A stretch of DNA of 64,000 bases, from the NCBI RefSeq assembly GCF_027924145.1, contig NZ_BRVP01000009.1:1-64000 (forward strand). The letters run 5' to 3'. Position numbers and translations under genes: made by a program. The notes below the pieces were generated by a model that saw only the letters and a list, made by a program, of their open reading frames with translations, was not told where the DNA came from and ran no database searches. Of the stretch, positions 41,067 to 42,368 are shown one piece after another (position 1 is the stretch's first letter; each line of letters opens with the position of its first letter). The stretch comes from Neptunitalea chrysea (lineage in GTDB: Bacteria > Bacteroidota > Bacteroidia > Flavobacteriales > Flavobacteriaceae).

Positions 41067-41139
41067 GGGTAGCACCGGGACTCGAACCCTGTTCTCCTCA
41101 TTCACAGTGAGGCGTTTTACCGGTTAAACTAGAGCTACC
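41067..41139 (-). tRNA. tRNA-His(GTG), degenerate
   Basis: Anticodon arm CCTCA-CTGTGAA-TGAGG with anticodon GTG. Discriminator C73, the His identity base. Acceptor GGTAGC pairs GCTACC with a T-T mismatch at position 7-66. T arm CAGGG-TTCGAGT-CCCGG has one A-G mismatch, and there is one surplus nucleotide before the D stem (GTTT/AAAC). CCA is not encoded. It is the last gene of the array. Confidence 0.75.
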
Positions 41140-41188
41140 GTTTGCAGTATTGACTAACTACTTTTTAGAAAGTGAATCTCGTTTATCT

Positions 41189-41240
41189 AGTAAACTACTT
41201 CGGAGCAAGCCCACAAAGTAGTTAACCTCAATTATTTAGT
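41189..41240 (-). repeat. Dispersed intergenic repeat, copy 7 (reverse, internally deleted)
   Basis: Read on the minus strand, AATAATTGAGGTTAACTAC, TTTGTGGGCTTGC and CCGAAGTAGTTTACTAG; the middle part of the consensus is missing. It lies inside the tRNA array between tRNA-Gln and tRNA-His, so it was gained within the array. Confidence 0.75.
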
Positions 41241-41310
41241 AAACCTAACAGGATTTGAACCTGTACTGCCAGTGCCAAAAACTGACGTGCTAACGTTACA
41301 CTATAGGTTT
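41240..41310 (-). tRNA. tRNA-Gln(TTG)
   Basis: Acceptor AAACCTA/TAGGTTT is perfect, D arm GTG/CAC, anticodon arm TCAGT-TTTTGGC-ACTGG with anticodon TTG, T arm ACAGG-TTCAAAT-CCTGT perfect. A73; no encoded CCA. The acceptor is A/T-rich and unlike a housekeeping Gln tRNA. Confidence 0.88.
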
Positions 41311-41323
41311 AAACATAAAATAG

Positions 41324-41396
41324 TACAAGAGAAGAGACTCCAGCTCTAAAAACCCTGATTCTAAATCAGGTGCGTGTGCCTGTACGCCACTCTTGT
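41324..41396 (-). tRNA. tRNA-Leu-like (TAG), class I shape
   Basis: Acceptor ACAAGAG/CTCTTGT perfect, T8 G9, D arm GCG/CGC with a Leu-like TGGCG start, anticodon arm CCTGA-TTTAGAA-TCAGG, anticodon TAG, A73 as for Leu. But the variable region is only five nucleotides, whereas bacterial tRNA-Leu has a long variable arm, and the T loop is CTGGAGT rather than TTCGAGT. Either an unusual tRNA or a decayed one. Confidence 0.65.
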
Positions 41397-41404
41397 AAGT
41401 GGAA

Positions 41405-41459
41405 ATAAGCGCTATGCCTACGGGAGACAGCCGTAAGCATAGGTTATTCCCTTTATTCC
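41405..41459 (-). other. Strong hairpin between tRNA-Cys and tRNA-Leu
   Basis: TATGCCTACGG ... CCGTAAGCATA with a 7-nt loop, extended on both sides by AATAA/TTATT pairing, forming a stem of about 17-20 bp. A small ATTCCA-CTCA-TGGAAT hairpin lies next to it. It may guide processing of the array transcript. A tRNA-Asp-like reading of the loop (CTGTCTC) fails because no T arm is present. Confidence 0.45.
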
Positions 41460-41472
41460 ATGAGTGGAATTG

Positions 41473-41544
41473 AGACAAGGATGGGATTCGAACCCATATA
41501 AAACAGATTTGCAGTCTGTTACCTAACCATTCAGTCACCTTATC
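41473..41544 (-). tRNA. tRNA-Cys(GCA)
   Basis: Acceptor GATAAGG/CCTTGTC (one G-U), D arm ACT/GGT, anticodon arm ACAGA-CTGCAAA-TCTGT with anticodon GCA, T arm ATGGG-TTCGAAT-CCCAT. U73 is present, the Cys identity discriminator. CCA is not encoded. Confidence 0.9.
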
Positions 41545-41556
41545 AAATCATTTTTG

Positions 41557-41639
41557 TGGAAGTGGTAGGATTTGAACCTACACGCCTAATAAGGACCAGA
41601 TTTACAGTCTGGCGAGCCAACCAATTGCTCAACACTTCC
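41557..41639 (-). tRNA. tRNA-Tyr(GTA)
   Basis: Acceptor GGAAGTG/CACTTCC, D arm GAGC/GCTC, anticodon arm CCAGA-CTGTAAA-TCTGG with anticodon GTA, a long variable arm as expected for bacterial Tyr, T arm GTAGG-TTCAAAT-CCTAC, A73. First gene of the array, 44 nt after the leader terminator. Confidence 0.92.
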
Positions 41640-41682
41640 TTCCTTTTTTCTTTTTCAATAGTTTTTTTCCCACATGTTTAAA

Positions 41683-41717
41683 AAAAAAGCATCTCCGGGA
41701 AAAGGAGATGCTTTTTT
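41683..41717 (-). terminator. Leader terminator between leader ORF 1 and the tRNA array
   Basis: On the minus strand AAAAAAGCATCTCC-TTTTCCC-GGAGATGCTTTTTT, a 14-bp stem and a T run: a strong intrinsic terminator. It lies 20 nt after the stop codon of leader ORF 1 and 44 nt before tRNA-Tyr. Its 5' arm and loop (ATCTCCTTTT, 41709-41700) are fully complementary to AAAAGGAGAT (41766-41757) within the leader ORF. Confidence 0.9.
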
Positions 41718-41737
41718 ACTTGGTTATATAATAGCCG

Positions 41738-41866
41738 CTAGGGCATTATAAGTCGTATCTCCTTTTTAGGTATTTTATATAGTGTTGTACTACAGGCACA
41801 ATAATGTATATAATAACACAAACTAAGTTGCGATTGCTGCTGTGTATGTAGTGTATGTGTTTTCAT
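41738..41866 (-). CDS. Leader peptide 1 of the tRNA array (predicted)
   Basis: 42 aa, ATG at 41866, starting MKTHTLHTQQQSQLSLCYY. His, Gln, Leu, Cys and Tyr make up 18 of the first 30 residues, three of them (His, Cys, Gln) normally rare. The order of the runs is His, Gln, Leu, Cys, Tyr, the reverse of the order of the tRNA genes downstream (Tyr, Cys, Leu, Gln, His). Codons used (CAT, CAA/CAG, CTA/CTT, TGT, TAT) are those read by these tRNAs, apart from one TTG. The 3' part carries the putative antiterminator strand. A TTG (41925)-N20-CATCTTTG (41902-41895) promoter lies upstream. Related to leader ORF 2. Translation is not proved. Confidence 0.6.
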   Translation of the reverse strand: MKTHTLHTQQQSQLSLCYYIHYCACSTTLYKIPKKEIRLIMP

Positions 41867-41894: not shown

Positions 41895-41925
41895 CAAAGA
41901 TGGAAACCTTTTTTGAATTACACAA
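41895..41925 (-). promoter_or_regulatory. Putative promoter of leader 1 and tRNA array
   Basis: TTG, 20 nt, CATCTTTG, close to the Bacteroidota TTG-N19-TAnnTTTG pattern. It would start transcription about 20-25 nt before the leader ATG. Confidence 0.5.
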
Positions 41926-42117
41926 ATTATTTTTACATTTAAAATGTTGATAATCAGTGTTTTGTGTGTTGATTTTAGCGTGTTGAATTCCTGTCCGGCA
42001 TCATGCGGATTCTTGAAATGTATACAACTGACTGTCTCCCAATTGTTTTGTTTTCAATTCAATTATTTGTTATGTTTTGTACTACAGTAACTTTGCATCT
42101 CAAAAAAAATTAAAAAA

Positions 42118-42145
42118 AAAGCGTCCAATTTATATTGGACGCTTT
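42118..42145 (-). terminator. Intrinsic terminator after leader ORF 2
   Basis: AAAGCGTCCAAT-ATAA-ATTGGACGCTTT on the minus strand followed by further T residues; 12-bp perfect stem. It lies 36 nt past the stop codon of leader ORF 2. Its 5' arm (AGCGTCC, 42143-42137) can pair with GGATGCT in the leader (42207-42201), including one G-U, giving a weaker antiterminator. Confidence 0.85.
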
Positions 42146-42181: not shown

Positions 42182-42289
42182 TCACCTTAAATTAGCCCGC
42201 AGCATCCTGTGTTGTTCACTATATAATGAACAAGAATAACATAGTTGTACACTATGTTGCTGTATGCTATGTAGGGTAACTGTTTTCAT
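42182..42289 (-). CDS. Leader peptide 2 (predicted), paralogue of leader 1
   Basis: 35 aa, ATG at 42289, MKTVTLHSIQQHSVQLCYS at the start. Aligns with leader 1: MKTxTLH, QQ, QL, LCY in the same places. His, Gln, Leu, Cys and Tyr are 16 of 35 residues. TACTTTTG at 42306-42299 fits a -7 element, but would leave almost no untranslated leader. The ORF stops (TGA) before a 12-bp-stem terminator. Short ORFs are easily formed by chance, and the case rests on the similarity between the two copies. Confidence 0.55.
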   Translation of the reverse strand: MKTVTLHSIQQHSVQLCYSCSLYSEQHRMLRANLR

Positions 42290-42368
42290 ATAATCTTACA
42301 AAAGTAGTGTTTTATTACGTAAATATGCTTTTATAGCACAAAGGGATGTTCCTCTTGGCTAGCCTAAA

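Follow-up and report, generated by a model that had tools for sequence, protein, structure and literature searches.

The five tRNA genes of the window (the whole stretch of 64,000 nucleotides that was analysed, positions 1 to 64,000 of contig NZ_BRVP01000009.1 of Neptunitalea chrysea) lie behind two tandem leader-terminator modules, which are interpreted here, with a probability of about 0.8, as a tandem ribosome-mediated transcription attenuator controlling spare tRNA genes. Three features demonstrated at the level of sequence support this reading: the anatomy of the modules, the complementarity of antiterminator and terminator strands with compensatory change, and a match in the ATG frame between leader codons and the isotypes of the array. 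It should be recognized that translation of the leaders, ribosome stalling, induction, tRNA charging and the trigger are inferred, and that there are no expression data. The pairing of modules with arrays holds in dozens of flavobacterial genomes.

Modules and tRNA array of the window

The order on the minus strand is the leader B module, a conserved element, the leader A module and the genes for tRNA-Tyr, Cys, Leu, Gln and His. The features are the following.

42299-42306, minus strand: predicted -7 box of the leader B promoter, TACTTTTG (flavobacterial TAnnTTTG consensus)
42182-42289, minus strand: leader B ORF (type III), 35 aa, MKTVTLHSIQQHSVQLCYSCSLYSEQHRMLRANLR
42200-42208, minus strand: antiterminator strand B, AGGATGCTG, within the last codons of leader B
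42110-42145, minus strand: intrinsic terminator B, AAAGCGTCCAAT-ATAA-ATTGGACGCTTT and T run, -16.2 kcal/mol
41946-42051, minus strand: conserved inter-module element, ACAATTGGGAGACAG...ATCCG...CGGACAGG...TGATTATCAA (alignment A4, model R1)
41895-41925, minus strand: predicted leader A promoter, TTG, 20 nt, CATCTTTG, aligned and conserved in 13 loci
41738-41866, minus strand: leader A ORF (type IV), 42 aa, MKTHTLHTQQQSQLSLCYYIHYCACSTTLYKIPKKEIRLIMP
41756-41767, minus strand: antiterminator strand A, AAAAAGGAGATA, codons K-K-E-I of leader A
41679-41717, minus strand: intrinsic terminator A, AAAAAAGCATCTCC-TTTTCCC-GGAGATGCTTTTTT and T run, -18.4 kcal/mol
41556-41639, minus strand: tRNA-Tyr(gta), ARAGORN and Rfam, 63% identity to the other tRNA-Tyr of the genome
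41472-41544, minus strand: tRNA-Cys(gca), ARAGORN and Rfam, 62% identity to the other tRNA-Cys of the genome
41323-41396, minus strand: tRNA-Leu(tag), ARAGORN and Rfam, 74 nt, without a long variable arm
41239-41310, minus strand: tRNA-Gln(ttg), ARAGORN and Rfam, 65% identity to the other tRNA-Gln of the genome
41067-41139, minus strand: tRNA-His(gtg), ARAGORN and Rfam, 60% identity to the other tRNA-His of the genome

The earlier note had described the 42-residue ORF, a strong intrinsic terminator downstream of it (41717-41683 plus the T run), for which -18.4 kcal/mol is now calculated, and tRNA genes for exactly Tyr, Cys, Leu, Gln and His; all its coordinates are correct. ARAGORN finds only these five tRNA genes in the window, all on the minus strand, and Rfam concurs. 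The array tRNAs are only 55-65% identical to same-isotype tRNAs elsewhere in the genome and thus are not recent duplicates; the other tRNA-Leu(tag) of the genome has 83 nt, as against 74 nt in the array. Modules and array are flanked by a lipocalin/RadA gene group and a convergent TonB-receptor gene, the neighbours in the window being RadA, PanC, PanD, an esterase and the TonB receptor. A repeat of ∼55 nt with six further copies in the genome is present at 41243-41189, between the Gln and His tRNA genes, and a second hairpin spacer separates the Cys and Leu genes.

His, Gln, Leu, Cys and Tyr make up 19 of the 42 residues of leader A (45%, the proportion originally reported; binomial p 2e-4 versus local proteins). 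The second of the two leader peptides mentioned in the earlier note is leader B, MKTVTLHSIQQHSVQLCYSCSLYSEQHRMLRANLR (42289-42182), which has its own terminator and contains 16 of these residues in 35 (p 6e-4). The proposal that the five corresponding tRNAs are sensed needs correction, each leader being a broad codon sampler that is not specific to five residues. In the window, leader residues do run in the opposite order to the tRNA genes (Kendall tau -1 for mean residue positions), but this does not extend to all loci (mean tau -0.09 and -0.14), and in the window it is probably due to chance.

Relatives and the predicted switch

A DNA search of 60 relatives gave one clear homologous locus, in G020, where two leader-terminator modules precede a 12-tRNA array and an operon encoding RtcB and PrfH, itself with two leader modules, lies further upstream. 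PrfH loci were gathered from genome contigs and from same-family genomes, in 28 of 349 of which they were found. One or two modules (types I and II) precede RtcB-PrfH in most of the flavobacterial loci examined, and tRNA arrays downstream of RtcB-PrfH have two more (types III and IV); arrays behind tandem modules contain up to 19 tRNAs and often adjoin the RtcB-PrfH RNA-repair operon. Leader B of the window is of type III and leader A of type IV, with no adjoining RtcB-PrfH; in this genome rtcB-prfH is encoded on a different contig, accompanied by a leader resembling type II, MHIYTTYFQLPLASANVLRGFRFS. A tblastn search of the window's own genome with a single leader found nothing useful outside the window.

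From terminator III to leader IV runs a stretch with inverted repeats that is strongly conserved across loci, the window among them. The model R1 of this element matches in 53 of 397 same-family genomes and sporadically in other families of the order and class; the match in the window has an E value of 4e-19, but it should be noted that the window sequence is itself part of the model. R1 matches provided two further rounds of loci, independent of the formation of the hypothesis. In some loci (L245, L247, L249, L250, L255, L253 and L264) the element and a leader are present with no tRNA array within the fetched stretch, and in G001, from the same genus, the modules are present and the tRNA sequences are all broken. 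The element also occurs in a viral contig (IMGVR_UViG_3300002231_000758, L288 3246-3292), with no tRNA found in the stretch. The question raised in the earlier note, whether such leaders precede tRNA arrays in relatives, has a positive answer with one correction: they do so in many flavobacterial genomes, and similar modules also stand before RtcB-PrfH operons or, in some cases, before a TPR gene without a tRNA array being found.

Genes linked to the arrays encode RtcB and PrfH, PcfJ, a T4 Rnl2-type RNA ligase, RlaP and an exonuclease. Genes for TPR and Band-7/SPFH proteins are linked as well, and this set of genes suggests RNA damage as the trigger. The TPR protein, of ∼190 aa, is encoded after PrfH or tandem leaders and often before the tRNA array (L247 5364-5942, L106 11948-12505 and group-2 loci), and the Band-7/SPFH protein is often encoded downstream of the array. 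Possible leader ORFs, such as MLEFTTHTKQAIRKG, stand with terminators before rtcB-prfH outside the Flavobacteriaceae in L045, L051, L053 and L054, hinting that attenuation of RtcB-PrfH is spread more widely in Bacteroidota.

Some array tRNA genes in relatives are interrupted, with the same isotype and insert position in several genomes. Inserts of ∼45-55 nt are found at the anticodon loop of Ser-tga genes (L028, L050, L140, L146) and Tyr genes (L028, L143), and near positions 24-30 of Leu-taa genes (L026, L035, L140, L146, L152); the alternatives are gene decay through small insertions and intron-like sequences next to RNA-ligase genes. Outside the arrays there are 111-nt tRNA genes whose anticodon region is enlarged by extra sequence (L144 2231-2341 and L152 7640-7750, both minus strand). 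Tandem pairs of truncated tRNA-like sequences, which retain the D arm and have an abnormal anticodon or T arm, are found downstream of arrays (L050 17242-17373, L029 12533-12668) and near the module in L020, with single similar matches in L146 and L153.

A short leader ORF lies directly upstream of an intrinsic terminator in the window and in 84 modules. Antiterminator strand A pairs with the 5' arm and loop of terminator A (z -3.1, p 0.01 versus shuffles), which bears out the complementarity first noticed for AAAAAGGAGATA, and on folding, as the earlier note had suggested, the antiterminator helix forms when the leader A transcript ends before the 3' arm of the terminator. Antiterminator strand B is complementary to the 5' arm, AAGCGTCCA, of the terminator at 42145-42118, terminator B (z -2.3, p 0.035). 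In the 84 modules the partner of the terminator 5' arm falls within the final codons of the ORF and in most cases begins 20-45 nt from the ORF end; mean z values are -2.8, -3.5, -2.1 and -1.5 for types I, II, III and IV, respectively, and complementarity is similar in 43 new modules. The type IV antiterminators are individually weak (p < 0.05 in 4 of 14). Compensated changes are seen in the antiterminator/terminator pairs AGGACGCT/AGCGTCC, AAGACGCT/AGCGTCT and GGAACGCT/AGCGTTC. Attenuation calls for an antiterminator that is exclusive with the terminator and reachable by the ribosome; this is met, most weakly for type IV. An upstream (1:2) helix sequestering the antiterminator is not evident in types I (z 0.0) and III (z 0.6) and is marginal in type IV (z -0.5); types II (z -1.6) and IV-prime (z -1.1) may have one. 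As types I and III show no such competitor, failed translation start should also turn them on. A box resembling TAnnTTTG is found upstream of most leaders, and for type III a promoter box lies within 90 nt upstream of 31 of 33 (6.5 in shuffles).

In the mechanism proposed, each module would comprise a promoter, a leader ORF of 35-42 codons, an antiterminator in its last codons and an intrinsic terminator. With all tRNAs available, the ribosome would reach the stop codon and cover the antiterminator strand, allowing the terminator to form. When any one of the sampled tRNAs runs short, lacks its amino acid or has been cleaved, the ribosome is predicted to stall upstream of the antiterminator strand, which, being free, would pair with the terminator 5' arm so that polymerase enters the array. 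Since the leader codons sample the array's own isotypes, the array would supply what the leader finds missing. The most likely trigger, inferred from the linkage of modules to RNA-repair genes, is tRNA cleavage by toxins or anti-phage nucleases.

Correspondence of leader codons with array isotypes

The his and trp attenuators require leader codons cognate to the output, and for leaders and arrays this is met. The correspondence was examined in three sets of loci, of 13-14 loci (set 1), 16-17 loci (set 2) and, as set 3, five late loci from other genera and families (four for type III and five for type IV). Mechanical scans were the basis for leader starts, isotype lists and array contents, all of which were partly curated by hand; set 1 also counts interrupted tRNA genes as part of the array. 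In sets 1 and 2 only the leader part upstream of the antiterminator was scored, with random protein windows of equal length as control. Type III leaders of set 1 represent 148 of 150 array isotypes (random windows 99.8, sd 4.7) and type IV leaders 154 of 161 (116.5, sd 4.7); on permutation of the arrays the observed presence score was not reached in 50,000 trials, and codon frequency gave p values of 6e-4 (III) and 2e-5 (IV). Types I and II, compared with the same arrays as a control, gave no significant result (p 0.20 and 0.09). In set 2 the counts are 119 of 124 for type III (random 84.8, sd 4.4; permutation p 0.016) and 106 of 122 for type IV (random 72.6, sd 4.4; p 0.001), the array isotypes without a leader codon being most often Trp and Asp. 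Set 3, scored by eye, gave 29/29 for type IV in five loci and 21/22 for type III in four, the type III leader of L291 being unresolved; in L290, where the array consists of Ser and Asp, leader IV is strikingly rich in Ser.

The match depends on reading frame. Across 29 loci the ATG frame of leader III covers 266 of 272 isotypes and the other five frames 181-205, and permutation is significant in the ATG frame only (p < 1e-4). For leader IV the ATG frame covers 261 of 281 and other frames 167-200, with weaker residual permutation signals in two non-ATG frames that are attributed partly to leader length; presence counts for leader IV are partly confounded by this length, but the frequency test is free of the confounding. 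Third-position codon drift was tried as proof of coding, but comparison of leaders between close relatives revealed no excess of third-position changes, and therefore coding is inferred from the frame-specific match, the frame control taking its place.

Leaders and arrays also change together. Between nearest relatives, array and codon changes are concordant in 18 cases and discordant in 1 for type III (p 4e-5), and in 21 and 3 for type IV (p 1.4e-4); the p values are approximate because loci are shared between pairs. For example, L026 has CLYDFRSEY and a tRNA-Asp, whereas L243 has CLYVFRSEY and none, and leader IV contains Trp in L151 and L241, where tRNA-Trp is in the array, and none in L153 and L242, where it is not. 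Thus the check put forward in the earlier note, that leader composition should track array isotypes in relatives, turned out positive in the three sets, in the ATG frame for type III and between nearest relatives.

Where Leu, Ser and Arg codons are split between boxes, the codon class that belongs to the array tRNA occurs in the leader for 109 of 110 classes; as proof, this matching of synonymous boxes (AGY/TCN, CTN/TTR, CGN/AGR) is weak alone, the unmatched boxes being mostly present too. Over all loci the arrays favour Tyr, Cys, Phe, Leu, Gln, His, Asp, Glu and Arg, and Thr, Gly, Ala, Val and Ile are rare in them. In the leaders, 95% of His codons are CAT (versus 70%), 98% of Tyr codons are TAT (versus 71%) and Pro codons are mostly CCG.

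Known systems, alternative readings and implications

The modules resemble the his, trp, leu and ilv attenuators in having a leader ORF with regulatory codons and an antiterminator that competes with an intrinsic terminator. However, the output of those attenuators is biosynthetic enzymes and that of the flavobacterial modules tRNA genes, and the flavobacterial modules also differ in that many isotypes are sampled by one leader, frequently through a single codon apiece, two modules follow one another with separate predicted promoters, and types I and III have no detectable 1:2 helix. The armZ/mexXY and whiB7 leaders also sense stalled ribosomes, in the context of antibiotic resistance. In macrolide mef/mel attenuation a leader ORF likewise senses ribosome trouble through a terminator and antiterminator (PMC4335068). 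What all these leaders sense is drug-arrested ribosomes, and their codons are not known to match a tRNA output. The nearest functional analogue found is the trn operon of Anabaena PCC 7120, a long array of extra tRNAs that is silent in normal growth and induced by translational stress; its regulator is the RHH DNA-binding repressor TrcR, which also has rtcB and a slipin (SPFH) gene among its listed targets, and no leader or attenuator is mentioned (PMC10272220). The repair genes of the RtcR-controlled RNA repair operon are turned on by damaged tRNA through a transcriptional activator with a CARF domain, RtcR, with no mention of an attenuator or tRNA array (Hughes et al. 2020, PMC7790460). The RtcB2-PrfH operon of E. 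coli ATCC25922 has the RtcB and PrfH pair in common with the flavobacterial loci and protects against colicin E3, which targets rRNA, but not against the tRNA-cutting colicins E5 and D (PMC9223846); a leader or attenuator is mentioned neither there nor in PMC1586002. Literature searches covering attenuation, leader peptides, tRNA arrays and RtcB-PrfH, with subscription journals largely uncovered, gave no description of tRNA genes attenuated by their own isotypes, in line with what the earlier note had supposed, and spare tRNA arrays under predicted leader control appear to be undescribed.

The modules might instead report translation failure in general, from an antibiotic, ribosome cleavage or a block of initiation, in the manner of the leaders found before antibiotic-resistance genes, with codon richness serving sensitivity and the array match being inherited or incidental. 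Similar modules of types I and II precede RtcB-PrfH, a repairer of damaged ribosomes in E. coli (PMC9223846), the composition of these types does not significantly track the arrays (p 0.20 and 0.09), and types I and III, without a competing upstream helix, would also be turned on by failed initiation; but a general sensor does not predict that types III and IV track the arrays between nearest relatives (18:1 and 21:3) or in the ATG frame, and we regard it as rather unlikely. Sensing of amino acid starvation, as in the his and trp operons, with the array a passive passenger or a boost to decoding capacity, would account for an architecture shared with those attenuators, and uncharged and missing tRNAs are indistinguishable to a stalled ribosome. 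It is nevertheless improbable, given that downstream amino acid biosynthesis genes are absent, a single leader samples 5-19 unrelated amino acids and the neighbours are RNA-repair genes.

A protein, repressor or antiterminator, could bind the inter-module element or the terminators, by analogy with TrcR, and the ORFs would then be secondary. The strong conservation of the element and its inverted repeats would be explained, but the codon-array match and the antiterminator strands would not; there is only a small chance that a protein is the regulator, and its additional action remains possible. That the whole is a decaying mobile or phage tRNA cluster with a functionless leader and terminators is suggested by the interrupted tRNA genes, by the broken tRNA sequences that alone accompany the modules in G001 and by short stretches resembling phage tRNAs. 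It is very improbable indeed in view of leader content that shifts with the array and antiterminators maintained by compensatory change; furthermore, no phage or mobile genes lie next to the window array, and no phage record spans most of it. A search for a phage-borne array found no phage genes around the window array and no near-full match among phage records, and phage or plasmid origin was rejected, the tRNA matches being short only and the TPR protein absent from plasmids. A T-box or other known riboswitch was rejected as well: Rfam models at gathering score detect only tRNA, tRNA-Sec and Flavo-1 in the window and the loci of 14 relatives.

The attenuator interpretation of the earlier note is supported, having withstood tests that might have overturned it, with transcription, stalling and induction being inferred. 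A wider proposal, on which we consider the odds to be even, is that the leaders are multiplexed tRNA sensors, samplers of 35-40 codons with about one codon per tRNA species, that are retuned as arrays gain or lose isotypes and that, with the RtcB-PrfH modules, constitute an inducible response to tRNA and ribosome damage in which nuclease-cut tRNAs would be replaced by divergent copies that the nuclease does not recognise. If this is true, one short reading frame would gauge many tRNA species together and the cell would answer with those same tRNAs, an inducible defence against toxins that cut tRNA and against anti-phage nucleases. Attenuation would be extended from amino acid supply to tRNA supply and tied to RNA repair, and the scheme would predict which tRNAs each strain had to defend.
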